NCBI GenBank assembly: GCA_902560675.1 | Contig: CACEMP010000003.1 | Location: 1-64,000 of the forward strand | DNA from: an uncultured Alphaproteobacteria bacterium | Lineage (GTDB): Bacteria; Pseudomonadota; Alphaproteobacteria; HIMB59; GCA-002718135 | Reading direction: 5' to 3' | Length of the DNA stretch: 64,000 nt | In this document: positions 38,197-55,044 of the stretch, piece by piece | How the letters are laid out: every line of letters starts with the position of its first letter | Numbering within the stretch: position 1 is the stretch's first letter | The notes under the pieces: model-generated | Databases searched by the model: none | The model's input: the letters and a program-made list of their open reading frames with translations, nothing else | Told to the model about the DNA's origin: nothing | Translations under genes and position numbers: made by a program

Positions 38197-39087
38197 ATGA
38201 AAATTGGTATTGATGTAGGTGGTACCAAAACCGAAGGTATTTTGTTAGACACTAATGGAAATGAAATAGATAGAAAAAGAATTAATACTGAAAAATCTTA
38301 TGATGGAACTATAAAAGGCATACTATCAATAATAAATTATTTTGAAGATAAATATGGTAAAGTAAAAACAGTAGGTATGGGCATGCCTGGTGCAATATCA
38401 AATGATACAGCTTTAATTAAAAATGCAAATTCAATATGGTTAAATGGAAAACCATTTAAACAAGACTTAGATAAAATCCTAAAAAGAAATGTTAATTTAG
38501 AAAATGATGCAAACTGTTTTACTCTTTCTGAAGCAGTTGATGGAGCTGGAAAGGGTTTTAAAATTGTTTTTGGAGTAATTATTGGGACAGGTGTTGGCGG
38601 TGGTATAAGCATTGATCAAAAAATTTTAAGAGGTCGTAATAGTATAAGTGGTGAATGGGGGCATATTACATTACCAAATAGGAGTGAAGATGAAAAAAAG
38701 TATGTCAAAGAATGTTATTGTGGAAAAGATGGCTGCTTAGAAACTTACATATCAGGCCCAGGTTTTTCATCCAATTACAATTTACGTTTTAATAAAAATT
38801 ATAATTCGCATCAAATATTAGAAGCTTTTAATAATAAAGAAGATGATAGTATTTTTGCTCTAAATCAATATGTCGATCATTTGGCAAGAGGTTTGTCTTT
38901 AGTTTGTAATATACTTGATCCAGATGTGATAGTGCTTGGAGGTGGTATGTCAAATATTGATTTTATTTATAAAAATATAAATGATGCATTAAAAAAATAT
39001 GTTTTCACCGACACACTTCATACCAAAGTTGTTAAAAATATTCATGGAGACTCCAGTGGAGTAAGAGGTGCAGCTTGGCTTTCTTAA
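38197..39087 (+). CDS. ROK-family sugar kinase
   Basis: 296 aa. ATP-binding N-terminus GIDVGGTKTEG (residues 4-14), catalytic Asp104 in LENDANCF, VIIGTGVGGGI phosphate loop, EWGH with His156, and the ROK zinc site CYCGKDGCLE (Cys173, Cys175, Cys180). Such enzymes phosphorylate fructose, mannose, glucose or N-acetylhexosamines; length and motifs fit fructokinase/N-acetylglucosamine kinase, but the substrate cannot be chosen by eye. Starts 6 nt after bioY; its 3' end overlaps the convergent gabD by 4 nt. Confidence 0.88.
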   Translation: MKIGIDVGGTKTEGILLDTNGNEIDRKRINTEKSYDGTIKGILSIINYFEDKYGKVKTVGMGMPGAISNDTALIKNANSIWLNGKPFKQDLDKILKRNVNLENDANCFTLSEAVDGAGKGFKIVFGVIIGTGVGGGISIDQKILRGRNSISGEWGHITLPNRSEDEKKYVKECYCGKDGCLETYISGPGFSSNYNLRFNKNYNSHQILEAFNNKEDDSIFALNQYVDHLARGLSLVCNILDPDVIVLGGGMSNIDFIYKNINDALKKYVFTDTLHTKVVKNIHGDSSGVRGAAWLS

Positions 39088-40535
39088 ATACCACCCATTG
39101 ATATATATTTTATAGTTAAATAATCATCGAGTCCATAACGAGAACCCTCTCTTCCCATTCCTGATTCTTTTACACCTCCAAAAGGAACTTCTGCAATAGT
39201 TGGTAATCCATTGTTTATTGAAACTATTCCATACTCTAGTGCCTCCGCAACCCTCCAAATTCTTCCAATATCTCTTGAGAAGAAATAAGAAGCTAAACCA
39301 TAAGGAGTATTATTTGCCATTTTAATAACTTCCTCATCATTTGAAAATTTATAGAGTGGCGCAACAGGACCAAAAGTTTCTTCAAAAGTTATTTTTGCTT
39401 TAGTAGAAACATTAGACAAAACAGTTGGTTGATAAAAATTTCCTCCAAGAGAATGTATATCGCCACCAATTGCAATTTTAGCACCTGTATTTACAGCATC
39501 TTGAACATGATCAATTACTTTCTCTAATGATGATTTGTCAATTAATGGACCAGAAATAATTCCATCTTCAAGTCCATTACCAACAGTAATTTTTTCTACT
39601 TCTTTTGTAAATTTGTTTAAAAATTCATCATAAATTTTTTCGTGAACAAATATTCTGTTGGTACAAATACAAGTTTGACCACTATTTCTAAATTTACTTT
39701 GCATTGCTCCTGTAACAGCTTCATCCATATCAGCATCATCAAAAACAATTAGTGGAGCATGACCTCCAAGTTCCATTGAAACTTTTTTTACAGTTGAGGC
39801 ACTTTGTTCTAAAAGTATTTTTCCAACTTCTGTTGATCCTGTAAATGAAATTTTTCTAACTGTAGAATTACTTGTTAATTCCCTCCCTATTTCACTTGCT
39901 GAACCAGTTATAACATTAAATACACCATCAGGAAAACCAGCTTCTTTTGCAAGTTGTGCAACAGCCAAAGCTGAAAAAGGTGTTTGACTTGCTGGTTTTA
40001 CAACAGTAGTACATCCAACAGCCATAGCAGCAGCACATTTTCTTGTAATCATTGAATTAGGAAAATTCCATGGAGTTATTGCGCCTACTACACCAACAGG
40101 CTGCTTAATAATTACAATTCTTTTACCGGGCCTTGGATCTGGTATTATATCACCATATACTCTTTTTGCTTCCTCCGCGTAGAACTCAATATAGGAAGCA
40201 CCCATTAATATTTCACCCTTTGCTTCGGCCAGAGGTTTACCCTGCTCAATTGTCATTATCTTAGCTAAGTCATCTGAATTTTTTGAGATCAATTCCCCCC
40301 ATTTTTTTAAAATTATTGATCTTTCTTTAGCTGTTGTTTCCTTCCAGCTTTGAAAAGCGTTATTAGCATGATCAATTGCAATTTTTGTTTCTGCAGTTGA
40401 GCATTTTGGCACATTTCCAATTATTTCTAGAGAAGCTGGATTATTTACTTCAAGAGTTTCTCCTGAAGCACTACCAATCCATTGTCCATTAATAAAACAT
40501 TTTTGTTTAAACAGCGATTTGTTATTTAATTCCAT
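39084..40535 (-). CDS. gabD: NAD(P)-dependent succinate-semialdehyde dehydrogenase-type aldehyde dehydrogenase
   Basis: 483 aa. Oxidises succinate semialdehyde (or a related omega-semialdehyde) to the acid. ITPWNFPNSMITRK cofactor strand, Lys180 in VVKPAS, FTGSTEVGK, general base Glu255 in MELGGHAP and nucleophile Cys289 in GQTCICTNR are all present; the C-terminal PFGGVKESGMGREGS fits GabD. It is divergent from the amidinotransferase with only 42 nt between the starts, suggesting linked regulation. In Ruegeria-type ectoine clusters an 'ssd' gene of this family accompanies eutABCDE, so aspartate semialdehyde is an alternative substrate. Confidence 0.9.
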   Translation of the reverse strand: MELNNKSLFKQKCFINGQWIGSASGETLEVNNPASLEIIGNVPKCSTAETKIAIDHANNAFQSWKETTAKERSIILKKWGELISKNSDDLAKIMTIEQGKPLAEAKGEILMGASYIEFYAEEAKRVYGDIIPDPRPGKRIVIIKQPVGVVGAITPWNFPNSMITRKCAAAMAVGCTTVVKPASQTPFSALAVAQLAKEAGFPDGVFNVITGSASEIGRELTSNSTVRKISFTGSTEVGKILLEQSASTVKKVSMELGGHAPLIVFDDADMDEAVTGAMQSKFRNSGQTCICTNRIFVHEKIYDEFLNKFTKEVEKITVGNGLEDGIISGPLIDKSSLEKVIDHVQDAVNTGAKIAIGGDIHSLGGNFYQPTVLSNVSTKAKITFEETFGPVAPLYKFSNDEEVIKMANNTPYGLASYFFSRDIGRIWRVAEALEYGIVSINNGLPTIAEVPFGGVKESGMGREGSRYGLDDYLTIKYISMGGI

Positions 40536-40577: not shown

Positions 40578-41681
40578 ATGACAATAGTTAATTCTTGGAA
40601 TGAATGGGATCCATTAAAACATGTAATAGTTGGGGCCGTTGAAAATGCAAATGTACCTCCTATGGAAACTGCACTTGTACCTAAGATTAGTAAAGATAGT
40701 GGAATGATGGGTTCTCACGGACCTCGTTCAAAAGAGTCAATCGACAAAGCTAATATACAACTAGAAAACTTTGTTAAAATTTTAAATTCTCTAAATATAA
40801 AAGTTGATCGACCAACACCTATTGACTTTTCTCAAAGTATCGAAACTCCAGATTGGTCAAATGATGGCATGTTTGGCTGTATGCCTCCAAGAGATGTTAT
40901 TCTCACTGTAGGAAATGAAATGCTAGAAGCACCCATGTCTTATAGGTGTAGATGGTTTGAGTATCTTGCATATAGACCTTTACTTGAAAAATATTATTCA
41001 GAAGATAAAAATATGAGATGGGAGTCGGCACCTAAACCAAGATTAACAAATCAATCTTATAAGTTTAATTATCTTCCTGAAGGCATAACTGAAGAAGAAC
41101 GATACAAAAAAATTGAAAATAGAGACATGATTTTGACAGAAAAAGAACCACTTTTTGATGCTGCAGAAATTTTACGCTTTGGAAAAGATCTTTTTTATCA
41201 TAACAATTTTACATCAAATTTAAGTGGCTTAGATTGGTTAAGAAGACATTATAGAAATCATCGTGTTCATCAAATTAATTTGCCAGGTGATTTAATACCA
41301 ACTCACATTGATGCATGTTTTACTCCTATTAAACCAGGAGTAATAATTATTAATCCAAATAGAAAAATTTCATCAGAGCAAAGAAAAATTTTTGATGATA
41401 ATAAATGGGAAATTCATGAAGCAGCTCCTTCTATTCATAATAGCCCACCACCTATGTGTTATTCATCTATTTGGTTATCTATGAATGTTTTGATAATTGA
41501 TCCTAAAACTATATGTGTCGAAGCGACTGAAGAAAAAATGATTAAACAAATGGAAAGTTTTGGATTAGATGTTATTCCAATTCCTTTTAGAGACGTTTAT
41601 GCTTTTGGTGGTAGTTTACATTGTGCAACAACTGATGTTTATAGAGAAGGTGAGTGTGAGGATTATTTTCCAAATCAATAA
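40578..41681 (+). CDS. Arginine:glycine amidinotransferase-like enzyme
   Basis: 367 aa, the length of the GAT/StrB1 group of the guanidino-group modifying superfamily. These enzymes move the amidino group of arginine to an amine acceptor, leaving ornithine. The catalytic triad is intact by alignment to human AGAT: Asp204 (RFGKDLF), His243 (PTHIDACF) and Cys349 (GGSLHCATTDV). Segments WLSMNVL and TSNLSGLDWLRRHY also match AGAT. Acceptor could be glycine (giving guanidinoacetate), GABA, or another amine; not decidable here. AAGGAA precedes the ATG and TATAAT lies at 40546-40551. It leads an eight-gene cluster with overlaps or gaps of at most 14 nt. Confidence 0.85.
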   Translation: MTIVNSWNEWDPLKHVIVGAVENANVPPMETALVPKISKDSGMMGSHGPRSKESIDKANIQLENFVKILNSLNIKVDRPTPIDFSQSIETPDWSNDGMFGCMPPRDVILTVGNEMLEAPMSYRCRWFEYLAYRPLLEKYYSEDKNMRWESAPKPRLTNQSYKFNYLPEGITEEERYKKIENRDMILTEKEPLFDAAEILRFGKDLFYHNNFTSNLSGLDWLRRHYRNHRVHQINLPGDLIPTHIDACFTPIKPGVIIINPNRKISSEQRKIFDDNKWEIHEAAPSIHNSPPPMCYSSIWLSMNVLIIDPKTICVEATEEKMIKQMESFGLDVIPIPFRDVYAFGGSLHCATTDVYREGECEDYFPNQ

Positions 41682-42436
41682 TGGATAGTTTTAATCAAAA
41701 TAATGTTAAAGCCAATTTAAAAGATACAAACTTTTCTAGAATTGGTGTAATTACACTATCAACTGATTTTACCATTGAGCAGGATTTTAGAAAAATTTGC
41801 CATAATTTACCTGTTGATCTATTTTTTAATAGGATACCTTTTTTAAATCCTCTAACTCATGAAAATTACATAAAGATGGCTGATCATATTACAGAAATAA
41901 CAAATCAAATATTACCCAATGAAAAAATACAAGTTGTAGCGTATGGATGTACTTCGGGTACTATTGAAATTGGTGAAAAAAGAATAAGATCTGAAATCTT
42001 CAAAGCTAAACCTGATGCTTTAATCACTACGCCTATTACAGCAGCTGTAAAAGCACTTAAATTGTTAAACCATAAAAAAATTGCTGTTCTTACCCCTTAT
42101 CCAAATGATGTTAATGTAAAAGTTTACAATTATTTAATAGATAGTGGTTTTGAAATTAAATCATTTAGTTCATTTAATTTAAACTATGACTCGGAAATTG
42201 CCAAAGTTACCCATGACAGTTTAATGAGAACAATTTCCTCAATTGATTCAACAGATGTTGATAGTATTTTTGTATCTTGTACCGCATTAAAAGTAATTGA
42301 TATTATTGAAAAATTAGAGTCAAAATTAAACACAGATATCATTTCAAGTAATCAAGCTATTATTTGGGATTCACTAAGATTATCTAATATTAATCAAAAA
42401 ATTGATGGTTTTGGTAATCTACTTAAATTACATTAA
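41681..42436 (+). CDS. Asp/Glu racemase / arylmalonate decarboxylase-like protein (EutA-like)
   Basis: 251 aa. The two catalytic cysteines of this superfamily are present: Cys90 in VAYGCTSGT and Cys200 in FVSCTAL, with IAVLTPYPNDVN between them. The family includes maleate isomerase, hydantoin racemase and EutA of ectoine-utilisation clusters; the order here (EutA-like, EutB-like, EutC-like) matches the eutABC block. Its start overlaps the amidinotransferase stop by one base. The reaction is unknown; cis-trans isomerisation or racemisation of a small dicarboxylate/amino acid is the family expectation. Confidence 0.75.
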   Translation: MDSFNQNNVKANLKDTNFSRIGVITLSTDFTIEQDFRKICHNLPVDLFFNRIPFLNPLTHENYIKMADHITEITNQILPNEKIQVVAYGCTSGTIEIGEKRIRSEIFKAKPDALITTPITAAVKALKLLNHKKIAVLTPYPNDVNVKVYNYLIDSGFEIKSFSSFNLNYDSEIAKVTHDSLMRTISSIDSTDVDSIFVSCTALKVIDIIEKLESKLNTDIISSNQAIIWDSLRLSNINQKIDGFGNLLKLH

Positions 42437-42448
42437 ATAGGGTTTAAA

Positions 42449-43411
42449 TTGATTACACTTCAACAAATACAAGATGCACATAAGAAGATTTTACCTTATG
42501 TTAATTATACACCATTAGTTAATTCTAATTTCTTATCAAAAAATAATAAAGTAAAACTAAAGTTAGAAAATTTTCAAATTACTGGTTCATTTAAGTTAAG
42601 AGGTGCAGTTAATAAGCTACTTTCTTTAAGCAAAGATGACAAAAACAAAGGAGTCATCGCAGTTTCTACAGGTAATCATGGCAAAGGAGTTGCTTATGCT
42701 TCAAAGGTATTAGGCATTCAATCAACAATATACATGTCTTCAATGGTTCCAGAATATAGAAAAGAGGCTATTGAAAAATTAGGAGCAAAAGTAGAAATTA
42801 TTGGAAAAAATAGTGATGAAGCTGATTTGCATGCTAAACGAATTGCCAAAGAAAAAAATATTCCATTAATCCATCCATTTGACGATGAAGATATTATTAT
42901 AGGTCAAGGAACAGTGGGTTTAGAAATGCTCGATCAGTTCCCAGATGTTGATACAGTTATTATTCCAACATCTGGCGGCGGCCTTATTTCTGGAATTGCA
43001 CAAGCAATTAAACTTCAAAAACCTGATACAAAAATTATTGCAGTATCCATGGAAAGAGGACCCTCCATGTATGAAAGTCTAAAACAAGGTAAGCCTGTCG
43101 ATGTTAAGGAAACTGAAACTTTAGCTGATTGTTTAGGTGGCAGCATTGGCTTAGATAATAAATTTACTTTTAATATTGTACAAAAATATGTTGATGACTT
43201 TGTTTTAGTTAGTGAAGAAAAAATAGCTGAGGGAATAAGAATGAATTTTTTAGAACATAAAATAGTATCTGAAGGTGCAGCAGCAACAAGTGTTATGGTT
43301 GTTAAAGAAAAACTAACATCACACTTAGGAAAAAATATAATCTGTTTAATTTGTGGAGGTAATATAGACTCGGAATTATTCAATAAAGTTTTAAGTCATG
43401 CTCATACTTAA
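42449..43411 (+). CDS. Threonine dehydratase / threo-hydroxyaspartate ammonia-lyase-like PLP enzyme (EutB-like)
   Basis: 320 aa. Fold-type II PLP enzyme: Schiff-base Lys49 in TGSFKLRGA, STGNHGKGVAYA phosphate-contact loop, TSGGGLISG glycine loop and the terminal LICGGNIDSELF. Length lacks the ACT regulatory domain of biosynthetic IlvA, so it is the catabolic/serine-racemase-like type. Homologues are EutB and BhcB, which dehydrate beta-hydroxyaspartate. TTG start with AGGG a few bases upstream; its 3' end overlaps the next gene by 14 nt. Confidence 0.82.
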   Translation: MITLQQIQDAHKKILPYVNYTPLVNSNFLSKNNKVKLKLENFQITGSFKLRGAVNKLLSLSKDDKNKGVIAVSTGNHGKGVAYASKVLGIQSTIYMSSMVPEYRKEAIEKLGAKVEIIGKNSDEADLHAKRIAKEKNIPLIHPFDDEDIIIGQGTVGLEMLDQFPDVDTVIIPTSGGGLISGIAQAIKLQKPDTKIIAVSMERGPSMYESLKQGKPVDVKETETLADCLGGSIGLDNKFTFNIVQKYVDDFVLVSEEKIAEGIRMNFLEHKIVSEGAAATSVMVVKEKLTSHLGKNIICLICGGNIDSELFNKVLSHAHT

Positions 43412-44372
43412 TAAAAATCAGATTATTCAACATGTGCACTTAAATGAAGAACTCATTCCAATAATTGAAGAAGCTTTTGTCAGTTTATCAAAAGGATCAG
43501 TTATGATGCCCCCAATTATGAGAATTGATATTAAGAAATACCATGGCGAATCTGATATTAAAGCTGCTTATATTGAAGGTTTAGATAGCTTTGCAATAAA
43601 AATAGCATCAGGTTTTTTTGATAATCCAAAAATTGGTTTGCCATCAAGTAATGGATTGATGGTTTTATTAGACTCTGAAACAGGAATAGTAAAATCTGTT
43701 TTATTAGATGAAGGTTATCTTACAGATACTAGAACAGCTATTGCAGGAGCTATAGCTACAAAATATTTATCAAATCAAAACGCTAATACGGTGGGGATCA
43801 TTGGAGCTGGAATTCAAGCCAGATTACAACTTCAAGCTATAATGTTAGTGAGAAAAATTAATAAAATTACGGTTTGGGCAAGAGACAAGATTAAAGCTAA
43901 TCAATTTTTAGATAGCTTTAAAGATTTAGAAATAGATTTGCATATGGCTTCTTCTTGTAAAGAATTGGCTTGTTTATCAGAGATAATCGTTACAACAACT
44001 CCAAGTAAAAAACCTCTTTTAGAGTTTGATTGGATAAAAAAAGGAACACATATAACTGCAATGGGATCAGATGCAGAACATAAAAATGAAATAGATCCTC
44101 ATATGTTAAAATATTGTGATCAATATGTGCCAGATAATCAATCACAGACAAGTGCATTAGGTGAATTACATCATGCATTGAAAAAAAATCTAATTTCATC
44201 TCAAGAAAAATTTAATGATCTTGGTGATATTATTAATGATCCAAACTTAGGAAGAAAAAATAAAGAAGATATAACGATATGTGATTTGACAGGAACTGGT
44301 GTACAAGATACTGCGATAGCAAGATTTACTTTTAATCTTTGTAAAAAAAATAATTTAGGCATCAATATTTAA
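43398..44372 (+). CDS. Ornithine cyclodeaminase/mu-crystallin family protein (EutC-like)
   Basis: 324 aa. NAD(P)-binding Rossmann motif VGIIGAGIQARLQ in the middle, preceded by the family's KSVLLDEGYLTDTRTAIAGA segment and followed by TGTGVQDTAIA near the C-terminus. Family members cyclise or reduce imines: ornithine cyclodeaminase, ketimine reductases, BhcD iminosuccinate reductase, and EutC. Standing next to a hydroxyaspartate-lyase-like gene, an imine-handling partner role is plausible. True ornithine cyclodeaminase activity would also fit, because the cluster's amidinotransferase releases ornithine. Confidence 0.8.
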   Translation: MLILNKNQIIQHVHLNEELIPIIEEAFVSLSKGSVMMPPIMRIDIKKYHGESDIKAAYIEGLDSFAIKIASGFFDNPKIGLPSSNGLMVLLDSETGIVKSVLLDEGYLTDTRTAIAGAIATKYLSNQNANTVGIIGAGIQARLQLQAIMLVRKINKITVWARDKIKANQFLDSFKDLEIDLHMASSCKELACLSEIIVTTTPSKKPLLEFDWIKKGTHITAMGSDAEHKNEIDPHMLKYCDQYVPDNQSQTSALGELHHALKKNLISSQEKFNDLGDIINDPNLGRKNKEDITICDLTGTGVQDTAIARFTFNLCKKNNLGINI

Positions 44373-44375
44373 AAC

Positions 44376-45818
44376 ATGAGTCAAACAATAATTAAAAAAA
44401 CATCTGATTACTTCAAATCTAAAGGAGTTGTCTTGCCAAGTATAAGTGAACTTCAAAATCCTCAAAGTATTAATGAAAATATTAAAAATTCTCTAAAAAA
44501 AATAAATAATAATGACATAAACCCACTTAATCTTTTTAGAGTACATTGGTTCAACAAAAGAGATCAATCAGGTTTTGGTAATGAGCCTGAATATGTTGTG
44601 CTTCCGTCAGAATTTACTGGGGTCAAAGCAAAGATTATTGTAAATATGGGACGTTATTTTCCCTTAATAACAGCTCATAAAGTTTTGGCAGCTTATGGTT
44701 GTTTGCTTCCAAGAATATTGAATGGCACTTTTGATTTTGAAAAACATAAAGCAGTTTGGCCTTCAACAGGAAATTATTGCAGAGGTGGAGTAGCAATATC
44801 TCGTATCATGGGACTTAATAGTATTGCTATACTTCCTGAAGGGATGAGTAATGAGAGATTTGAATGGTTGAATAATTGGGTCGAAGATAAAAAAAATATT
44901 ATAAAGACAAAAGGCACAGAAAGCAATGTGAAAGAAATCTATGATGCTTGTAATGAACTAAAAAAAGATAGTCAAAACGATATTATAAATCAATTTGATG
45001 AGTATTTTAATTACGGTATTCATCGTTCTGTAACTGGTCCATCTTTTGAAAAATCATTTCTTAAAGTTAAAGGTGACAGTAATTTAGTTCCAAGGTTTTA
45101 TGTTAGCGCTTCAGGTTCTAGCGGTACTCTAGCAGCAGGAGATTATCTTAAAGATAAATTACAAACAAAAATTGCAGTTGTAGAAGCTTTGGAGTGTCCA
45201 ACATTGCTTCATGGAGGTTATGGTGAACATAATATACAAGGAATTGGCGATAAACATGTTCCACTTATTCATAATGTAATGAATACGGATTTTGTTGTAG
45301 ATATTTCAGATCAAGCTACCAATAATCTAAATATGATTTTTAATACTGAAATTGGAAAAAGGTTTTTAATACAGAGAAAGAATTTAGATCCTAATTTTGT
45401 TTCTCGACTTCCTGAATTTGGTTTTTCAGCAATAGCAAATATATTAGCTTCAATAAAACTAGCTAAATATATGGATTTAAATAGTGATGATGCAATTATC
45501 ACCGTTGCTACTGATGGTGCAGATTTGTACATGTCAGAATTAAATAAAACGATCAATGATTTTAAAGATAATTATAATGAAATAGTTTGTGCTGAATTAT
45601 TAGGTAAGCATTTATCAGGCATATCAACTGATAATATGTTGGAACTTTCTTATATGGATAAAAAAAGAATATTTAATCTAGGTTACTTTACATGGGTAGA
45701 ACAACAAGGCATAAGTCTTGATGATTTTGAGAAACGAAAAGATCAGAAATTTTGGAATTCACATTATGAATACATGCTTTCTCTAGACAATCAGATTAAA
45801 GAATTTAATAATATGTAG
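44376..45818 (+). CDS. Cysteine synthase/tryptophan-synthase-beta-like PLP protein of unknown substrate
   Basis: 480 aa. Not a standard named enzyme, but fold-type II PLP features can be read: likely Schiff-base Lys102 in FPLITAHKVLAAYG, phosphate loop PSTGNYCRGGVAISRIMGL (about 129-147), and a glycine-rich loop SASGSSGTLAAGDYL. ALECPTLLHGGYGEHNIQGIG resembles the region before the cofactor pocket of cysteine synthases. At 480 residues it is longer than OASTL (about 310-330), with an N-terminal extension of about 80 residues and an inserted segment after residue 160. It starts 3 nt after the EutC-like gene and ends 3 nt before the M20 gene. A lyase or beta-replacement step is the family expectation. 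Confidence 0.7.
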   Translation: MSQTIIKKTSDYFKSKGVVLPSISELQNPQSINENIKNSLKKINNNDINPLNLFRVHWFNKRDQSGFGNEPEYVVLPSEFTGVKAKIIVNMGRYFPLITAHKVLAAYGCLLPRILNGTFDFEKHKAVWPSTGNYCRGGVAISRIMGLNSIAILPEGMSNERFEWLNNWVEDKKNIIKTKGTESNVKEIYDACNELKKDSQNDIINQFDEYFNYGIHRSVTGPSFEKSFLKVKGDSNLVPRFYVSASGSSGTLAAGDYLKDKLQTKIAVVEALECPTLLHGGYGEHNIQGIGDKHVPLIHNVMNTDFVVDISDQATNNLNMIFNTEIGKRFLIQRKNLDPNFVSRLPEFGFSAIANILASIKLAKYMDLNSDDAIITVATDGADLYMSELNKTINDFKDNYNEIVCAELLGKHLSGISTDNMLELSYMDKKRIFNLGYFTWVEQQGISLDDFEKRKDQKFWNSHYEYMLSLDNQIKEFNNM

Positions 45819-45821
45819 TTT

Positions 45822-46976
45822 ATGAAAACACAAGCTTTACATAACCAATTAGTAGAATGGCGTCATGATCTTCATATGCACCCACAATTAAGTTTTGAAG
45901 AAGAGTATGCTGCAGCAAAAGTGTCCACACTACTTAAAGAGTTTGGCATAGAAGTTCATTCGGGTATAGCCAGAACAGGCGTAGTTGGAATATTAAAAAA
46001 AGGGAATAGTTCAAAATCAATTGGTATTAGAGCTGATATGGATGCTCTTCCTATACATGAAACCAACACTTTTAGTTATAAGTCAAAATTCGATAATCGA
46101 ATGCATGCATGTGGACATGACGGCCACACAACTATGTTATTAGGTGCAGCAAAATATTTGGCAGAAAAAGGGAACTTCAATGGTACCGTATATTTTATTT
46201 TTCAACCTGATGAAGAAAATACATTTGGTGCAAGAACTATGATTGATGAAGGTCTATTTGATAATTTTAGTATTGATGAAGTATATGCTTTGCACAACAT
46301 TCCTAATATGGAAATTGGAACATTTGGAACAAGAAAAGGAGCCATTACAGCAAGTGAAAATTTATTTGAAATAGAAATAAAAGCTAAAGGTGGTCATGCG
46401 GCATTGCCTCATATGGGTGTTGATGCAATAACCGTTGGTTCTCAAATAGCTGTGGCTCTTCAATCGATTGTATCAAGAAAGTTAAATCCAGCAGATAATG
46501 GTATAGTTTCTATTACTGAATTTATGACAGATGGTAAAAAAAATGTTTTGCCAGGTATGGTAAAAATGACTGGTGACGCGAGAGCTTTATCAAAAGAAAC
46601 AAATGAAAAAATTGCTTCAAAAATGTTACAAATTGTCGAAGGTATTTGCAATGCACATGGTGTTAATGGTAGTGTTAAATATGAAACGACATGCCCAGTA
46701 ACTTATAATTCAAAAAACCAAACTGAGTCTGCAACAAAAGCTGCAGTTTCATTACTTGGCAACGATAGATGTAATGCTGATATTGAACCACGTTTATTCT
46801 CAGAAGATTTTTCTGTTATGGCAAATGAAATACCTGGCTGTTTTGTTTTAATGGGTAACGGTACATCAGAGCAGCATTCTAGACCTTTACATGCAGACAA
46901 TTATGATTTTAATGACGAATTATTAGTCATAGGTTCTTCATATTGGACTGAATTGGTAGAACAACAATTAAAATAA
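45822..46976 (+). CDS. M20D-family amidohydrolase (hippurate hydrolase/N-acyl amino acid deacylase type)
   Basis: 384 aa. Metal-dependent amidohydrolase: RADMDALP, ACGHDGHTTMLLGAA (Cys97, His99, His102), QPDEEN with the catalytic Glu pair, GGHAALPH, and PLHADNYDFND near the C-terminus. It removes an acyl group from an amino acid; family members include HipO, auxin-conjugate hydrolases and enzymes annotated DoeB2 (N-acetyl-diaminobutyrate deacetylase of ectoine degradation). Its position right before an M24 hydrolase, one base from stop to ATG, parallels the hydrolase-deacetylase pair of ectoine breakdown. Exact substrate unknown. Confidence 0.82.
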   Translation: MKTQALHNQLVEWRHDLHMHPQLSFEEEYAAAKVSTLLKEFGIEVHSGIARTGVVGILKKGNSSKSIGIRADMDALPIHETNTFSYKSKFDNRMHACGHDGHTTMLLGAAKYLAEKGNFNGTVYFIFQPDEENTFGARTMIDEGLFDNFSIDEVYALHNIPNMEIGTFGTRKGAITASENLFEIEIKAKGGHAALPHMGVDAITVGSQIAVALQSIVSRKLNPADNGIVSITEFMTDGKKNVLPGMVKMTGDARALSKETNEKIASKMLQIVEGICNAHGVNGSVKYETTCPVTYNSKNQTESATKAAVSLLGNDRCNADIEPRLFSEDFSVMANEIPGCFVLMGNGTSEQHSRPLHADNYDFNDELLVIGSSYWTELVEQQLK

Positions 46977-48134
46977 ATGTTTTCTGAAAATTTAAATAAA
47001 TTAAAGAAAAAAATGTCTGAGAATAATATTGATCTCTCAATTATAACTGATGATGACTCTATATATTATTTCACAGGATACCATGACTTCCTTCATATGG
47101 ATTTTTATCGACCAACACTTTTAGTCGTTTCAAATGATCATAAAACTTACTTAATTACACCTCTTCTTGATGTTTTATTAGTACCAGAAACTTGTCCTGT
47201 AGATTTGGTTGAAACATGGAATGATGGTATTGGAAATGAATGGAGAGAATTATTACCTCAAATCATCAATCAGCATAAAAATATTTTTATTGAAAAATTT
47301 AAAATAAATCCAATGGTTAAGAGTTACTTAGATGAATTACTTCAAGACCATCCTGGTGATATAACTAAATTAATAGATAATATAAGAATGATCAAATCTA
47401 ATCATGAATTGAATATAGCTCGTCATGCTGGTGAAGTTGGTATGGCTATGATGGAGGCAGCTAAAAAAACAATTGACCATAATGTTCCTGAGTATGAGGT
47501 CGCACTTGCGCAATCACAAGCCGGAACAAGAAAAGCTGCAGAGCTTTTAAAAAAATTTTATCCTGATAATATTAATATGTCTCCAAATATTCACTTTTTA
47601 CCAGTTATGACATCAGGTCATGATTTACCTAAAACTCACCATCGCGCTTCAACCAAAATTATTAAAAAAGGTGATCCCGTATTTGTATGTTATTGTGGTT
47701 CTACAAATTTTCATAGGTTTAAGTTAGGTTTTGACAGAATATTTTGGGTAGAAGAAATTCAATCTAATGAACAAATAAAAGCTTTTGAGGCTGCAGTTAA
47801 ATCTCAAAAAGCTGCTCTTGAAATTCTTGGCCCAGGAGTTACGGCTGAAGAAGTTCATGCTGCTTATGCAGATACTATACAGTCTGAAGGATACCCGTAT
47901 CCTACTTTTCGATGTGGCAGAGGTACGGGCTTTAGTTTTTTAGAGGAGCCACAATTAGTAGTTGGTAATAAAACAGTACTCGAGCCTGGAATGGTATTTG
48001 CCGTTGATGGAGGAGCAAGTGCAAATAAATTTAGATCACAGGTTGGTGATAGTTTTATTATTACAAAAGATGGATACGAACAAATTACACATCATTCTAA
48101 AAATATTGATGATCTAATAATTCAACATGGATGA
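46977..48134 (+). CDS. M24-family 'pita-bread' hydrolase without metal ligands (creatinase/ectoine-hydrolase-like)
   Basis: 385 aa: creatinase-N domain (about 1-140) and pita-bread catalytic domain (about 145-385). The stretch ARHAGEVGMAMMEA...NVPEYEVALAQ aligns with creatinase. By eye, the five M24 metal ligands (Asp, Asp, His, Glu, Glu) become Tyr239, Gly251, Arg315, Asp344 and Gly357, so it should not be a metallo-aminopeptidase. Creatinase and ectoine hydrolase (EutD/DoeA) are known metal-free M24 enzymes. The LTGYDGWSFYV-like signature I expect in ectoine hydrolases is replaced by FTGYHDFLHMDFYRP, closer in form to creatinase (DFLYCSFGRP). soxBDAG downstream fits sarcosine release. Abuts the M20 gene and overlaps the next gene by 8 nt. 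Confidence 0.78.
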   Translation: MFSENLNKLKKKMSENNIDLSIITDDDSIYYFTGYHDFLHMDFYRPTLLVVSNDHKTYLITPLLDVLLVPETCPVDLVETWNDGIGNEWRELLPQIINQHKNIFIEKFKINPMVKSYLDELLQDHPGDITKLIDNIRMIKSNHELNIARHAGEVGMAMMEAAKKTIDHNVPEYEVALAQSQAGTRKAAELLKKFYPDNINMSPNIHFLPVMTSGHDLPKTHHRASTKIIKKGDPVFVCYCGSTNFHRFKLGFDRIFWVEEIQSNEQIKAFEAAVKSQKAALEILGPGVTAEEVHAAYADTIQSEGYPYPTFRCGRGTGFSFLEEPQLVVGNKTVLEPGMVFAVDGGASANKFRSQVGDSFIITKDGYEQITHHSKNIDDLIIQHG

Positions 48135-49152
48135 AATAACAGTATTTAATACACATTGTTGTGGTGAAATTGGGGATGTCGTAATTGGATTCAAAGGTTT
48201 AAAGTTCAATTCACCTGAAGAAGCTTCTAAAAAACTTTTTTTAGATAAAAAATGGAGAAATTTTTTTTTAAATGAACCTCGGGGAGGAGTCTTTAAACAT
48301 TGTAATATTATTTTAGAGCCTTCAAATAAAAATGCAGATGCTGGATTTGTCATTATGGAACCAGAAGATAATCCTCCAATGAGTGGATCAAATACAATTT
48401 GTGTAACAACAGTCTTATTAGAAAAAAATATTGTTCAAATGAAATATCCTAAAACAATGCTTACACTTGAAGCTCCCGGTGGTTTAATAAAAGTTGTTGC
48501 TGATTGTGAAAATAAGAAAGTTAAAAGTGTAACTTTTACTAATCTTGCCTGCTTTGCAGATAAGATAGATGTAGATTTAAAGACTAAAAATTATGGTACA
48601 ATTAAAGTAAGTACTGCTTTTGGTGGTGATAGTTTTTTGATTTGTAATGCTAGTGATTTTAATCTTAAAATTGAACCACAAAATGCAATTAAATTTGTAA
48701 ATGTTGCCAAAGAATTATTAAAAGAAGCAAATGCATCAATTGGATTTGAACATCCTACAATTAAAGAATTAAACTATCTTTCCTTTTGTCAATTTATTGA
48801 ACCTTTGCAAAAAAATAATCGATCATTACTAACAGGGTTAAATACTGTTGTTATACGACCAGGGAAACTTGATCGTTCACCTTGCGGTACAGGCACTTCA
48901 GCAAGATTAGCAGTAATGAAAGAAAAAAATGAAATACAACTAAATGAAGAATTTATATCAAAGTCTATTATAGGATCATCATTTAAAGCTAGTATTGAAA
49001 AGGAAATTCAAATAAATAACAAAAATTGTATTATTCCAAAAATAACTGGTACTGCATTTATCACTGGAAAACAAAGTTTATATTTCGATAAGGATGATCC
49101 TTTTCCGGAAGGTTATAGATTAAATGACACATGGCCAGATTCATCAACTTAA
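48127..49152 (+). CDS. Proline racemase-superfamily enzyme, Ser/Cys type (hydroxyproline epimerase/dehydratase-like)
   Basis: 341 aa. Proline racemases use two Cys on opposite faces. Here the first is Ser86 in PPMSGSNTICV while the second, Cys253 in LDRSPCGTGTSARLA, is kept. EAPGGLIKV and AFGGDSFL are family landmarks. A Ser at the first site is seen in superfamily members with hydroxyproline epimerase and/or 3-hydroxyproline dehydratase activity, whereas true proline racemase needs both Cys. It overlaps the M24 gene by 8 nt, so it belongs to the same operon. A cyclic imino acid or dehydration substrate is the likely theme. Confidence 0.82.
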   Translation: MDEITVFNTHCCGEIGDVVIGFKGLKFNSPEEASKKLFLDKKWRNFFLNEPRGGVFKHCNIILEPSNKNADAGFVIMEPEDNPPMSGSNTICVTTVLLEKNIVQMKYPKTMLTLEAPGGLIKVVADCENKKVKSVTFTNLACFADKIDVDLKTKNYGTIKVSTAFGGDSFLICNASDFNLKIEPQNAIKFVNVAKELLKEANASIGFEHPTIKELNYLSFCQFIEPLQKNNRSLLTGLNTVVIRPGKLDRSPCGTGTSARLAVMKEKNEIQLNEEFISKSIIGSSFKASIEKEIQINNKNCIIPKITGTAFITGKQSLYFDKDDPFPEGYRLNDTWPDSST

Positions 49153-49228: not shown

Positions 49229-50494
49229 ATGACAAAATTTGATGCCTGGAATGTAATTAAAAACGGTTTAAATGGTCAGTCTTATTGGACTAGACAATGG
49301 CGTGATCCAGAACCAAAAAATAGTTATGATGTTGTAATAATCGGGGGAGGTTTACATGGTCTTGCCACAGCATATTATCTAGCAAAGAATCATAATATAA
49401 AAAATGTAGCTGTCTTAGAAAAAGGCTGGATAGGTGGCGGAAACGCTGGACGTAATACAACCATTGTAAGATCAAATTATATGATGCCAGGTAATCACGA
49501 ATTCTATGAACATTCTTTAAAGTTATGGGAAAATTTAAGTCATGAATTAAATTACAATGTAATGTTTAGCCAACGAGCTCATGTGTCATTATTTCATAGT
49601 CCTAGTGCTAAAGATTCAGTTTCAAGGATTTATAATATTATGAGGCTGCATGGAACTGATGCAGAACTTTGGGATTTAAAAACTTTAAAGAAAAAAATCC
49701 CGCATTTAAATTATCATAATTCTAGATTCCCAATACTTGGAGCTGCAGTCCAGAAAAGAGCAGGTAATGCAAGACATGATGCAGTTGCATGGGGTTATGC
49801 AAGAGCTGCAGATACATTAGGTGTAGATATTCTTCAAAATTGTGAAGTTACAGGCTTTACAAGAAAAAATGGAAAAATTGAAAGTATTCAAACTTCAAGA
49901 GGAATTTTAAAAGCAAAGAAAATAGGATTTGCTGTTGCTGGGAATACTTCAGTATTATGGCAAATGACAGAATTAGGCAACTTACCAATTGAGTCCCATA
50001 AATTACAAGCTTTTGTGTCTGAAGCAGTTAAACCGCTTTTAGATCAGGTTGTTGTATACGGTGTGGGCGGTGCACATTTCTATATATCTCAGTCTGATAA
50101 AGGAAGCATGGTGTTTGGCGGTGATCTTGATTGGTATAAATCATATGCACAAAGAGGAAATCTTCCTATGGTTCAAGATGTTGCTGAAGCGGCCATGGCA
50201 ATATTTCCTTCACTTGGCAGAATAAGATTACTTCGTCATTGGGCAGGTGTTATGGATATGACAATGGACGGATCTTTTTTTATTTGTAAAACACCGATAT
50301 CTAATCTCTATTTAAATGCTGGCTGGAATTATGGAGGTTTCAAAGCGAGTCCAGCATCAGGCTGGTATTTTGCTGACTTAATTGCAAATGAGAGTCCACA
50401 TAACTATGTTCAAAATCATAATTTAGAAAGATTTGAAAAAGGGATCAACATAGATGAACGTGGTGCAGGACCTGATCCAAAATTGCACGGTTAA
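49229..50494 (+). CDS. soxB: Heterotetrameric sarcosine oxidase beta subunit
   Basis: 421 aa. The FAD/FMN-binding subunit where N-methylglycine is oxidised. FAD motif VVIIGGGLHGLATAYYLA (GGGLHG at 39-44), then the subfamily hallmark IGGGNAGRNTTIVRSNYM, and KRAGNARHDAVAWGYARAAD, whose His lies where the covalent FMN link occurs in known SoxB. C-terminal RLLRHWAGVMDMT and NAGWNYGGFKASPASGW are conserved. The 76-nt gap from the previous gene could hold its own promoter, but I see no convincing one. soxD begins at the next base after the stop. Confidence 0.96.
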   Translation: MTKFDAWNVIKNGLNGQSYWTRQWRDPEPKNSYDVVIIGGGLHGLATAYYLAKNHNIKNVAVLEKGWIGGGNAGRNTTIVRSNYMMPGNHEFYEHSLKLWENLSHELNYNVMFSQRAHVSLFHSPSAKDSVSRIYNIMRLHGTDAELWDLKTLKKKIPHLNYHNSRFPILGAAVQKRAGNARHDAVAWGYARAADTLGVDILQNCEVTGFTRKNGKIESIQTSRGILKAKKIGFAVAGNTSVLWQMTELGNLPIESHKLQAFVSEAVKPLLDQVVVYGVGGAHFYISQSDKGSMVFGGDLDWYKSYAQRGNLPMVQDVAEAAMAIFPSLGRIRLLRHWAGVMDMTMDGSFFICKTPISNLYLNAGWNYGGFKASPASGWYFADLIANESPHNYVQNHNLERFEKGINIDERGAGPDPKLHG

Positions 50495-50779
50495 ATGATT
50501 AGAATCAATTGTCCTTATTGTGGTGAAAGAGATCATAGTGAATTTAGTTATGGAGGAGATGCAACAATAAATTATCCTTCGTTAGATGCCTCTGAGAAAG
50601 AATGGACTGAGGCTATATTTTTTAGAAAAAATATAAAAGGTTTTCAATTTGAAACATGGCATCATTCTAATGGATGTAGAATGTGGTTAGTAGTTGAACG
50701 TTCTACAGTCACACATGAAATAAAAAGTGTGAAACCATGTCATCCAGACTTACAGAAGGTTGTAGAAAATAATAAATGA
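50495..50779 (+). CDS. soxD: Heterotetrameric sarcosine oxidase delta subunit
   Basis: 94 aa zinc protein. Cys6 and Cys9 in NCPYCGERDHSEFSYGG plus His57 and Cys61 in HHSNGCRMW match, with a 2-residue shift, the Zn ligands known in structurally solved TSOX delta. Directly follows soxB and overlaps soxA by 4 nt. Confidence 0.95.
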   Translation: MIRINCPYCGERDHSEFSYGGDATINYPSLDASEKEWTEAIFFRKNIKGFQFETWHHSNGCRMWLVVERSTVTHEIKSVKPCHPDLQKVVENNK

Positions 50780-53733
50780 TAACTAGAAGATTAGATAATT
50801 ATGGCAAAATTAATAGAGATAAAATTTTATCCTTTAGATGGGATAAAAAGATTTATAAAGGTTTTGAAGGAGATACACTAGCATCAGCATTACTTGCAAA
50901 TAATATTGGTATAGTTGGTAGAAGTTTTAAATATCATAGACCAAGAGGAATATTTTCTAGTGGAGTTGAGGAATCTGGAGGTTTAGTTACTATTGGTTCA
51001 AAAGATAGAAGAGATCCAAATGTAAGAGCAACAACACAAGAATTATATAATGGTTTGGAAGCAAGTGGTCAAAATGCATTTCCAAATGTAAATTTTGATC
51101 TAGCTGGAATAAATAATTTCTTAGGTAGGTTTTTTGCAGCTGGTTTTTATTATAAAACTTTTATGGGAATACCTCCATTTGAATGGGGTAAAGGAACAGC
51201 CATATGGATGTTTTTCGAAAAGTTTATTAGAAAAGCAGCGGGAATGGGAAGTGCTTCTGGATTACCTGATCCAGATTCTTATGAACATGCTCATGATTTT
51301 TGTGATTTAATGGTTGTAGGATCAGGACCTTCCGGTGTTGCAGCAGCAATTGAGGCAGCAGAAAAAAAATTAGATGTTATTTTAGTTGAGCAAGATAGTC
51401 TTATTGGAGGAGATCAACTTGCAGAAAATAATTTTGATAATTCACAGATTAAAAAACAACTTGAAAATCTAGGAATAAAAATAATGACTAGAACCACTGC
51501 GTTCGGACTATATGATAATTGTGTTGTTGGTTTATTAGAGAGAGTAACAGATCATATTGCAGCACCAGATGTAAACATTCCACGTCAAAGATTTTGGACC
51601 ATTAGAGCAAAGCATATAATTGTTGGAGCTGGAGCAATTGAAAGACATATTGCTTTTAATAACAATGATATTCCTGGTGTAATGACCGTTAATGCATCAA
51701 AGCATTATTTGAATAGATATGGTGTACTAACAGGAAAAAAAATTGTGATAGCTACAAATAATGATTCCGTTTATGAAACAGCACAACAATTATCAGAAGC
51801 TGGAGCAAATGTAACTGTTATTGATTCACGAACTAATTTTAAAATTGAGACAAATAAAAATTATGAAATTAGAAAAGGTTATGTGCCTTATAATATTAAT
51901 GGTTCAAAAAAAATTAATAGTTTAGATATATCAAAAAGTGAAAATATAAATAAATCTGAAACTATAAATTGTGATCAGGTTCTATTGTCAGGTGGCTGGT
52001 CGCCTGCTGTACATTTGTTATCTCACAGGGGAGTAAGACCTAAATGGGATTATCACAATGCTTGTTTTTTACCGAGTGACACAAAAGAAAATATTACAAT
52101 GATAGGTTCTTCTAGAGGTTTATGGAATAAGAATGATTGTATTGCTTCTGGGATAGCAGGAACTACTGACGCATTGAACAGATTAGGTATTTCTAAAACA
52201 AATTATTTTTTTCCAAAACCTGGTGGATGGAAAAATCCCATTCAACCACTTTATGAAGTAAAATATAAAAAATCTAGATCAAAAAGTTTTGTAGATTATC
52301 AACATGATGTAACTTCAGACGATGTAAGACTTGCACATCGTGAAGGTTTCATTTCGGTAGAGCATCTTAAAAGATACACAACTTTAGGTATGGCTAACGA
52401 TCAAGGAAAAATGGGAAATATCATTGGATTATCTTTAATGGCTGAACTTTTAAATAAAGAAATTCCAGAAGTTGGAACTACGGTTTTCAGACCTCCTTAT
52501 ACTCCTGTATCTATAGGTGCGTTAAGTGGAAGAAATGTTGGAAAACATTTTAGGCCGTTAAGAGTAACACCAATGCATCAATGGCATATTGATCATGGTG
52601 CAAAAATGATTGAAGTTGGATTATATCAAAGACCTTGGTATTATCCCAAGGAAAATGAAACTTTAAGTGACTCCTATATAAGAGAAGCAACAACAGTAAG
52701 AAAAACAGTTGGTATTTGTGATGTAACCTCATTAGGTAAAATTTCTATTCAAGGACCAGACTCTAACGAATTTTTAAATAGAATTTATTCAAATGGTTTT
52801 TCAAAATTACAAGTTGGAAAAGCCAGATACGGTATTATGTTGCGTGATGATGGTATTGTAATGGATGATGGCACATCTTGGAGATTAGCAGAAAATGAAT
52901 ATTTTATGACTACATCTACAGGTGAGGCTGCAAAAGTTATGTCATGGTTAGAAGAATTACTTCAAACTAGATGGACAGATCTTAAAGTTAATGTGACTAG
53001 TGTTTCTGAACAATGGGCAGGCGTATCAGTTGCAGGGCCTAAATCTAGAGAAGTTCTTAATAATTGTGTCGATGATTCTTTGGTTATAACTAATAATAAC
53101 TTACCTTTTATGGGTATTGCCTCAACTTTTCTTAAAGGTAATATTCCTTGTAGAATTGCAAGAATTAGTTTCTCAGGTGAATTAGCTTTTGAAGTTTATG
53201 TTAAATCAGATTTTGCCAATACGATGATGGACCTACTTTGGAAAAATACAAAAAAGTATAATGGTTGTCTATATGGATTAGAAGCTTTGGGCGCACTTAG
53301 AGTTGAAAAAGGTCATGTAACAGCCGCAGAGCTTGATGGAAGGGTAACAATTGATGATGCAGGTTTAAGCAAAATGGCTTCTATGAAAAAATCATATATT
53401 GGAAGTGCAATGAGAAAACGTGGAGTATTGAAAAATAATGATCGAGAAATTCTAGTGGGTTTCTTTCCTACAAACTTAAAGGAAACTTTTAACGCTGGAA
53501 CTATTGTGTGTGAAAAAAATAATATTAAAGGACAGGGTATCGGAAGAATTACCTCAGTCACTTATTCTCCAGAACTTCGACATTGGATTGGATTAGGTTT
53601 TGTAAAAGGTGGTTTAGATAAATGGAAAGATACCACTTTAGTTGGGGCAGATCCTGTAAGAAACAAACAAATGAATTTAAGAGTTGTTTCACCACATATG
53701 ATTGATCCCAAAGGAGAGCGAATGTATGCATAG
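50776..53733 (+). CDS. soxA: Heterotetrameric sarcosine oxidase alpha subunit
   Basis: 985 aa. Order: N-terminal ferredoxin-like/flavoprotein start with SFKYHRPRGIFSSGVEE; NAD-binding Rossmann GSGPSG (182-187); pyridine-nucleotide-disulfide oxidoreductase body; C-terminal GcvT-like folate domain from about residue 580 (RVTPMHQWHIDHGAKMIEVG, RKTVGICDVTSLGKISIQGP, EALGALRVEKGHV). It takes the C1 unit as 5,10-methylene-THF. Ends inside the soxG start region (8-nt overlap). Confidence 0.96.
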   Translation: MITRRLDNYGKINRDKILSFRWDKKIYKGFEGDTLASALLANNIGIVGRSFKYHRPRGIFSSGVEESGGLVTIGSKDRRDPNVRATTQELYNGLEASGQNAFPNVNFDLAGINNFLGRFFAAGFYYKTFMGIPPFEWGKGTAIWMFFEKFIRKAAGMGSASGLPDPDSYEHAHDFCDLMVVGSGPSGVAAAIEAAEKKLDVILVEQDSLIGGDQLAENNFDNSQIKKQLENLGIKIMTRTTAFGLYDNCVVGLLERVTDHIAAPDVNIPRQRFWTIRAKHIIVGAGAIERHIAFNNNDIPGVMTVNASKHYLNRYGVLTGKKIVIATNNDSVYETAQQLSEAGANVTVIDSRTNFKIETNKNYEIRKGYVPYNINGSKKINSLDISKSENINKSETINCDQVLLSGGWSPAVHLLSHRGVRPKWDYHNACFLPSDTKENITMIGSSRGLWNKNDCIASGIAGTTDALNRLGISKTNYFFPKPGGWKNPIQPLYEVKYKKSRSKSFVDYQHDVTSDDVRLAHREGFISVEHLKRYTTLGMANDQGKMGNIIGLSLMAELLNKEIPEVGTTVFRPPYTPVSIGALSGRNVGKHFRPLRVTPMHQWHIDHGAKMIEVGLYQRPWYYPKENETLSDSYIREATTVRKTVGICDVTSLGKISIQGPDSNEFLNRIYSNGFSKLQVGKARYGIMLRDDGIVMDDGTSWRLAENEYFMTTSTGEAAKVMSWLEELLQTRWTDLKVNVTSVSEQWAGVSVAGPKSREVLNNCVDDSLVITNNNLPFMGIASTFLKGNIPCRIARISFSGELAFEVYVKSDFANTMMDLLWKNTKKYNGCLYGLEALGALRVEKGHVTAAELDGRVTIDDAGLSKMASMKKSYIGSAMRKRGVLKNNDREILVGFFPTNLKETFNAGTIVCEKNNIKGQGIGRITSVTYSPELRHWIGLGFVKGGLDKWKDTTLVGADPVRNKQMNLRVVSPHMIDPKGERMYA

Positions 53734-54289
53734 ACATTCTGCGCTAGAAACACTTTATAAAGTTGGAAAATTTTCAACAAACGAGAAACAATTTTTAACA
53801 TTTAAAGAATTAAAAAGTTTAGAAATTCTACAAATTGCTTGTTGGCCTGACAAAATTGATGAATTAAATAATTTATTAACAAAAAAATTGTCTATTAAAA
53901 ATATTCCCTTTTTTAATAAAGGGATTGTTTTTGAAAATAAATCATTATGGAGAATGGAACCCTTGAAATGGTGGTTATTTAATAAAGAAATCGAAGTAAG
54001 TGAGCAAATTGCAACAATTTTAGATATGTCTCATGCTTTCACAGGTATTGAAATTAAAGGAGATAATTCATCATTATTTTTAAATAGACATCTTCCAGTT
54101 GATTTAAGAGCTAAGAATTTTCCAGATCTATCGTCTGCTAGCACAGCCATTCATCATGTTAGTGTTAAATTATTTAAAATATCCTCCAATAATTACCATC
54201 TATATATACCAAGAGGTTTTGCCTTATCAATTTGGGAGATCCTTCTTGAAACAGCAAATCAGTTTGGATACGAAGTATTAGAGAGATAG
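53726..54289 (+). CDS. soxG: Heterotetrameric sarcosine oxidase gamma subunit
   Basis: 187 aa from ATG 53726, which has AAGGAG 9 nt upstream; the frame is open to an earlier TTG inside soxA, but family length favours the ATG. SoxG resembles a GcvT C-terminal lobe and stabilises the complex. IATILDMSHAFTGIEIKGDN, LNRHLPVDLRAKNFP and FALSIWEILLETANQFGYEV match the family. Last of the sox genes: the glyA, folD or purU often found here are absent. Convergent with the DUF3726 gene. Confidence 0.92.
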   Translation: MHRHSALETLYKVGKFSTNEKQFLTFKELKSLEILQIACWPDKIDELNNLLTKKLSIKNIPFFNKGIVFENKSLWRMEPLKWWLFNKEIEVSEQIATILDMSHAFTGIEIKGDNSSLFLNRHLPVDLRAKNFPDLSSASTAIHHVSVKLFKISSNNYHLYIPRGFALSIWEILLETANQFGYEVLER

Positions 54290-54363
54290 ATAGATTATCT
54301 TAGGGTAATGGAAACTGGTTATAAACTAATTACTAATATATTTAGCGATTTGCTTATAGTAAA

Positions 54364-55044
54364 TTAATCATTTGCATCACCACCTCCGGCACCTTTTGCT
54401 CTAGACTCCTCTGACTCAGGAACAAAAGTTCTAAAAGCTATTTTAGATATTTGATCCCAAGATTTCTTATCAGGATTAATACCCTTAGAGAGCAAATTAT
54501 TTATATTTGATGATGAAATATTAATATCTAACTTTTGTTCCTTTAAAATATTCTTTGTGAGTAGAAGATCAAAATTTCTTTGATAATTTGTAGAGATAAT
54601 ATCACTATTAACTCTAATATTTTTATTTGTTATTTGTCCATAAATTTTTTGATCTAACAAAAACTGTGAATTGATATTTTTTTTGGCATACTTGTAAAGT
54701 AAGGGTATTAAGAATATAGGGTCACTACAATTTTTTAAAGTTAATTTAACATTATCCCTTTTATCTATTTTTGATATTAAATAATCGATTAATCCTGGGC
54801 CTATCACCAAAAAAGATTTATTTTTACAATCAAACTCATCATTTATTTTTGTTGGATCTATACTGGCATTAAAGGTGTTATCTAATTCTTCAATCTTAAA
54901 TGTTAATAATTTGATTCCATCAAAACCAAATACTTCGAGCCAAGTTGTAATAAATGCAGCATCTTCATCTGATCCATAGGTGAACCCTAATCCTGAAAAA
55001 GCTCGTTGTGTATTAGTGAATACTTCATAGTAAGAATAACTCAC
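54364..55044 (-). CDS. DUF3726 family protein, function unknown
   Basis: About 226 aa. The N-terminal SYSYYEVFTNTQRAFSGLGF followed by GSDEDAAFITTWLEVFGFDG resembles the 'RAARGAG...GLAEEAA.A.RWL...GL.G' start of DUF3726 proteins, and the C-terminus FVPESEESRAKGAGGG matches their 'vP.SE.SR..GAG' end. Aligning to that start favours the GTG at 55044, 5 nt after the stop of the upstream gene; an ATG at 55080 is also possible and would overlap it. No enzyme motif is visible. It sits in a minus-strand pair with the 553-aa protein, beside sox and dipeptidase genes, so a role in amine/amino acid catabolism is a contextual guess. Confidence 0.7.
   Translation of the reverse strand: MSYSYYEVFTNTQRAFSGLGFTYGSDEDAAFITTWLEVFGFDGIKLLTFKIEELDNTFNASIDPTKINDEFDCKNKSFLVIGPGLIDYLISKIDKRDNVKLTLKNCSDPIFLIPLLYKYAKKNINSQFLLDQKIYGQITNKNIRVNSDIISTNYQRNFDLLLTKNILKEQKLDINISSSNINNLLSKGINPDKKSWDQISKIAFRTFVPESEESRAKGAGGGDAND

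Follow-up and report, generated by a model that had tools for sequence, protein, structure and literature searches.

An M24-fold protein without the canonical metal ligands, encoded beside an M20 deacylase gene in an alphaproteobacterial operon, is probably a distinct kind of C-N bond hydrolase

The operon and its M24 gene

The stretch of DNA analyzed here, which is referred to as the window, comprises 64,000 nucleotides from an uncultured Alphaproteobacteria bacterium, and the genes of interest in it are the following, with bit scores set against the cut-offs of the corresponding family models.

39084..40535, minus strand: divergent aldehyde dehydrogenase of the succinate-semialdehyde dehydrogenase type (712 bits, over the cut-off of 646)
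40578..41681, plus strand: arginine:glycine amidinotransferase-like protein, which opens the cluster (human AGAT, E 1e-76)
41681..42436, plus strand: EutA-like protein of the AMDase superfamily (211 bits, cut-off 318)
42449..43411, plus strand: EutB-like PLP dehydratase (357-386 bits, cut-off 413)
43398..44372, plus strand: EutC-like or cyclodeaminase-type reductase (414 bits, cut-off 472; PRK08291 453, over the cut-off of 408)
44376..45818, plus strand: PLP fold-type II protein of 480 amino acids (weak cysteine-synthase-like matches, 70 bits, cut-off 351)
45822..46976, plus strand: M20 amidohydrolase/deacylase, DoeB2-like (319 bits, cut-off 550)
46977..48134, plus strand: M24X, an M24-fold protein of 385 amino acids without canonical metal ligands
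48127..49152, plus strand: proline racemase superfamily protein, trans-3-hydroxy-L-proline dehydratase-like (415 bits, cut-off 550)
49229..50494, plus strand: SoxB, sarcosine oxidase beta family (606 bits, over the cut-off)
50495..50779, plus strand: SoxD (PF04267, E 9e-31)
50776..53733, plus strand: SoxA, sarcosine oxidase alpha family (1161 bits, cut-off 1164)
53702..54289, plus strand: SoxG-like protein, identified from its position and by comparison with annotated sox operons

Because the TIGR Eut matches in this operon all fall below the curated equivalog cut-offs, the operon is, as judged from profile scores, a diverged ectoine-type cluster (eutABC plus an M20 deacylase). The amidinotransferase-like protein at its head has no family match in the Pfam or NCBIfam models, and the GshA and GshB genes that lie upstream probably serve ordinary glutathione synthesis. 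The M20 gene ends at the base immediately before the start of the M24X gene, which in turn overlaps the proline-racemase-type gene by 8 bases; the latter is missing in four relatives (L047-L049 and L055) that keep M24X and the rest of the cluster, while the PLP fold-type II gene is present in every relative whose contig covers it. M24X itself occurs in all of the cluster loci by construction, since it was the query. An ectoine-hydrolase-type gene follows SoxG in 15 of the 42 relatives whose contigs reach that point, with a score in one of them (G161) of 470 bits, below the cut-off, and is absent from the corresponding place in the window (54289-54364). This junction is one at which the gene has been gained or lost (for example at L104:17014 and L039:17333-18505), and in L050 the frame holds a stop.

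The coordinates, frame and intactness of the M24X gene given by the first-pass annotation all hold. The open reading frame is uninterrupted over 385 codons, the opposite strand read in register contains many stops, and dN/dS is 0.06-0.07 when the window is compared with related contigs and 0.04-0.06 when the relatives are compared with one another; this is a real gene under strong purifying selection, with no decay. Both domains of the M24 pita-bread superfamily are matched above their curated cut-offs: PF01321 (Creatinase_N) at residues 6-139, with 62.8 bits against a cut-off of 22, and PF00557 (Peptidase_M24) at residues 148-363, with 86.8 bits against 23. An AlphaFold2 prediction from M24X and its relatives (16 sequences, of M24X type at 89-96% and EutD at 24-25%) has a mean pLDDT of 47, too low for the model to be used.

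Replacement of the metal-ligand columns

The positions of the metal ligands were located by MAFFT alignment with prolidase, creatinase, ectoine hydrolase and other M24 sequences, by HMM-to-PDB alignment, and by profile-profile alignment of the M24X family against ectoine hydrolases and against creatinases. The five columns that hold D, D, H, E and E in M24 metallopeptidases are occupied in M24X by Cys238, Gly251, Arg315, Asp344 and Gly357, and the metallopeptidase ligand set is absent in both the MAFFT and the HMM-to-PDB alignments. Independent alignments thus agree with the earlier report of an M24 protein without a metal site, and the profile-profile alignments likewise find the canonical site gone; the wording of that report, that all five ligands were lost, is slightly too strong, because an acid, Asp344, still fills one of the acid positions, which strictly leaves four unlike replacements and one conservative one, and because Cys238 could in principle bind metal. 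The residues which it had placed at these columns were correct for Gly251, Arg315 and Gly357, but Tyr239 was off by one: the conserved histidine is separated from the first ligand column by an ungapped 17 residues in all four families compared (H...D in prolidase, H...E in ectoine hydrolase, H...N in creatinase and H221...C238 in M24X), and this spacing identifies Cys238. Among the three histidines proposed earlier as catalytic candidates, it is His221, and not His216 or His222, that occupies the general M24 and creatinase catalytic position.

In 28 of 28 relatives, which span about 36-97% identity, the five replacement residues are invariant, as are F43, R45, W81, W89, H221, C240, K249, the F252-D253-R254 triplet, R312, G345 and D358. 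The resulting signature (H-x16-C-[FY]-C, K-x-G-F-D-R, R-x2-R in the ligand-His loop, V-D-G and G-D) is found in M24X and in all 28. Since the replacement residues never vary in these relatives, selection acts on them as a set, and their joint presence in M24X is more than chance.

Clade and distribution

The M24X gene is present in 53 loci, nearly all of them labelled Pelagibacteraceae or uncultured Alphaproteobacteria, whose bearers probably belong to the AEGEAN-169 group. Two of the contigs that bear the cluster, at 97% protein identity, are binned as "Verrucomicrobiales" and "Trichodesmium" (L007 and L016), most likely through contamination of those assemblies. More distant members of the same subclade (X), at 53-59% identity, occur in Roseovarius, Aminobacter and several other alphaproteobacteria, and a second subclade (Y), at 36-43% identity, occurs in rhizobia, Paraburkholderia and others.

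In the trees, X and Y together form one branch (100/100), the creatinases a second (100/100) and the ectoine hydrolases a third (100/100), with no branching order resolved among the three; X and Y remain together in a wider sample (100/99) and lie apart from the M24 proteins that bear metal ligands. M24X accordingly falls outside the prolidase/aminopeptidase clade, membership of which would have undermined the earlier annotation. The separation is also seen in a clade-profile search of 398 genomes, where members score at least 542 bits and the other M24 proteins among the matches listed at most 158. Two genomes, G079 and G176, each encode a creatinase, an ectoine hydrolase and an X protein, which indicates that the X protein is not simply one of the other two. 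Their true creatinases are 63-74% identical to that of P. putida, the ectoine hydrolase of G176 scores 547 bits (below the curated cut-off), and in both genomes the X-protein gene and the ectoine hydrolase gene are far apart.

A further M24 group without metal ligands was encountered at L154, L159 and L163; its members have Arg in place of the conserved His, and their ligand columns read E-(A/P)-Y-H-G. Creatinase and EutD are thus not the only M24 groups to have lost the metal.

Gene neighbourhoods of the relatives

The genes that accompany the relatives (called in high-GC loci by simple ORF finding and tblastn) differ in detail from those in the window. An operon at L088, unrelated to that of the window, contains an aldehyde dehydrogenase, an M20 protein, M24X and a EutA-like protein, and its M20 and M24X proteins are respectively 60% and 59% identical to those of the window; a GshB homologue near it is taken as coincidence. 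The Roseovarius and Aminobacter loci carry M24X, EutA-like, SoxB and SoxD genes, with M20, diaminopropionate ammonia-lyase and Ehu-type transporter genes near; the Roseovarius locus continues with SoxA and SoxG, while the Aminobacter record stops after SoxD. M24X stands with a EutA-like gene at L091, and no recognised amidohydrolase or EutA-like partner, nor any other of the neighbours just named, is seen at the X loci L089, L090 and L199. Among the 19 loci of the Y subclade, whose proteins are about 40% identical to M24X, ten adjoin a nitrilase-type C-N hydrolase gene, six have an AtzE-type amidase no more than about 6 kb away and six have a EutA-like gene; an amide hydrolase of either type lies within about 6 kb in 16 of 19, and three (L092, L098 and L102) have no recognised amidohydrolase or EutA-like partner. 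The pattern common across loci is that of an M24X-type protein with an amide hydrolase.

Several side observations concern these neighbours. A 59% homologue of the AGAT-like protein is encoded about 6 kb from the Y-type M24 gene at L098. Around the Y-type gene in the S. meliloti pSymA record (L086:10353-14689), the GntR, EutA-like and amidase genes are each split in two frames, by sequencing errors or by decay. Several types of metal-free M24 protein have EutA-like neighbours; one is a true creatinase of G176 (L204:5267-6454, 63% identical to that of P. putida), which adjoins a EutA-like gene at about 6611. The idea that a EutA-like neighbour signals a chiral product was rejected for this reason, and such neighbours do not fix the reaction of M24X.

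Proposed function and alternatives

Taken together, these data lead us to regard M24X, with moderate confidence, as a member of an unnamed M24 subfamily without metal ligands, one that hydrolyses a C-N bond in a small N-substituted derivative of an amino acid, upstream of an amidohydrolase. It would probably be a different kind of C-N bond hydrolase, neither a peptidase nor the known creatine- or ectoine-splitting enzyme. The bond cleaved may be the C-N bond of a cyclic amide, a cyclic amidine or an amidino group, and the product would pass to the M20 protein in the window operon, or, in relatives, to a C-N hydrolase of the nitrilase type or an amidase of the AtzE type; in this organism SoxBDAG may then remove an N-methyl group from it. 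Catalysis would proceed without metal. Arg45 is predicted to anchor the carboxylate of the substrate in the manner of creatinase Arg64, and Asp253 and Asp344, one carbon shorter than the creatinase glutamates, may hold a cationic or polar head group. His221 would act as general base or acid, and Cys238, which occupies the column of the first metal-binding Asp, where EutD has Glu255, may be the nucleophile or else a polariser. Of the chemistries that would suit the conserved residues, the simplest has a cysteine as nucleophile and His221 as its base. The more specific proposal, that a cysteine-dependent hydrolase evolved within the M24 fold and that the clade unites a Ti-plasmid opine delactamase with a new marine alphaproteobacterial enzyme for the degradation of osmolytes or N-methyl amino acids, is put forward tentatively and could well be wrong.

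It is unlikely that M24X is instead a diverged hydrolase of ectoine or 5-hydroxyectoine that replaces EutD in a eutABC and M20 cluster. The context is the one expected of EutD/DoeA: an M20 deacetylase gene is adjacent and eutABC is nearby, albeit with Eut matches below the equivalog cut-offs, and the operon runs eutA-eutB-eutC-M20 with an aldehyde dehydrogenase of the succinate-semialdehyde dehydrogenase type; EutD follows in just 15 of the 42 M24X-bearing relatives and none was found in this genome's 82%-complete assembly, and Ehu-type transporters lie near the Roseovarius and Aminobacter relatives. The protein itself, however, does not fit. M24X scores 60 bits against 613 for TIGR02993 and 53.7 against 575 for NF038259, and it lies outside the EutD clade (100/100). 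It lacks the SFYVHQ segment and the PPDWGERT loop, and has Cys238 in place of Glu255 (EutD chain numbering, counted on the alignment), the residue through which EutD performs covalent catalysis. Moreover, both genes stand in one cluster in the 15 relatives, and far apart in G079 and G176.

The first-pass annotation had leaned towards creatinase, on the basis of an N-terminal resemblance and of the sarcosine oxidase downstream, and a creatinase-type amidinohydrolase that converts creatine to sarcosine and urea for SoxBDAG is now, in our judgement, quite improbable. In creatinase (1CHM) the active-site set comprises F62, R64, H232, Y258, E262, R335 and E358, of which F62, R64, H232, E262 and E358 contact the substrate. 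M24X has F43, R45 and H221 at the first three positions and acids at E262 and E358, but both of these guanidinium-binding glutamates have become Asp, Y258 has become Lys and a 5-residue deletion removes the region around R335; F43, R45 and D253 are, moreover, found in other M24 groups too. The "RP" motif at 45-46 was rejected as a creatinase mark, since M24 proteins that retain the metal ligands (own_L004 and M24b) carry it. M24X also lies outside the creatinase clade (100/100), profile alignment puts the identity of its family with creatinases at only about 24%, and true creatinases are encoded separately in G079 and G176, so that the creatinase identity was not borne out. The sarcosine oxidase link survives in part: a four-subunit operon does follow, with soxB 1.1 kb downstream, and the product of M24X may eventually reach SoxBDAG, but Sox genes adjoin M24X in only three of eight lineages of close relatives and are absent near most X and Y relatives. 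An amidinotransferase heads the operon, which speaks for the creatinase reading, whereas creatinase has no need of the M20 deacylase partner. Also in its favour, creatine use has been proposed from annotation for the marine Ca. Indicimonas, in passages that name no gene for it (PMC11366302).

A rebuilt metal site, in which C238, C240 and H221 (and D253 and D344) bind Zn or Fe so that M24X is still a metallohydrolase, has little probability in our estimation, although it is the chief competitor of the cysteine-nucleophile proposal. Two cysteines, one histidine and two aspartates are indeed invariant in the part of the alignment where the old site lay, but the ligand His is replaced by Arg315 and the second Asp and the last Glu by Gly, and creatinase and EutD work without metal on the same fold. 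Finally, a non-catalytic pseudoenzyme with a regulatory or scaffold role as partner of the M20 hydrolase would account for the lost ligands and the directly adjoining M20 gene, yet is hardly credible given that the old active-site region is among the most conserved parts of the protein and that relatives exist without any M20 neighbour.

If the preferred reading of M24X as a metal-free C-N bond hydrolase is right, the M24 fold contains a further metal-free branch with its own invariant residue set, maintained in a stable catabolic operon at more than 50 loci in small marine alphaproteobacteria. In databases, proteins of this type go under the name "Xaa-Pro peptidase", and in marine surveys their genes may be counted towards creatine use. 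The substrate would reveal a nitrogen-rich compound eaten by these cells, and the enzyme would test whether a metal-ligand position can turn into a cysteine nucleophile.

Comparison with known systems

Xaa-Pro dipeptidase and aminopeptidase P (1PV9 and 7N02) have the same fold and give the best sequence-profile scores against M24X, but unlike M24X they keep all five D/D/H/E/E ligands. That the M24 fold can work without metal is established by creatinase and EutD. Creatinase shares with M24X the fold, the missing canonical site and the F62/R64/H232 equivalents, and differs from it at the ligand columns, where M24X has C rather than N at the first Asp, R rather than H, and G at the last. EutD/DoeA (6TWK) likewise shares the fold, the lack of a canonical metal site and the conserved His, and in addition the direct pairing with an M20 deacylase and the nearby eutABC genes. 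The pairing of M24X with an M20 or other amide hydrolase resembles the EutD/EutE hydrolase-deacetylase bimodule, where ring opening falls to the M24 enzyme and removal of the acyl group to the M20 enzyme (PMC8739950). Creatinase departs from this paired pattern, because its product is sarcosine directly.

The octopine-type Ti plasmid encodes an M24 protein (NC_002377, 66829-68079) which, at 26-29% identity, joins X and Y in the tree at 94/96, as one sequence on one long branch. It has R45, H221, C238, C240, D253, R312, R315 and G357 in common with M24X, and differs in having Cys for Gly251 and Glu for Asp344. Its gene belongs to a cluster of the opine type and is flanked by an ABC transporter on one side and by genes resembling fructoselysine kinase and fructoselysine-phosphate deglycase on the other, at what is presumably the agaE position of the agropinic-acid (aga) region. 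The role assigned to agaE is to convert agropinic acid, which is a lactam, to mannopinic acid; if the Ti-plasmid gene is agaE, the nearest relative of M24X with a known role would act on the C-N bond of a lactam.
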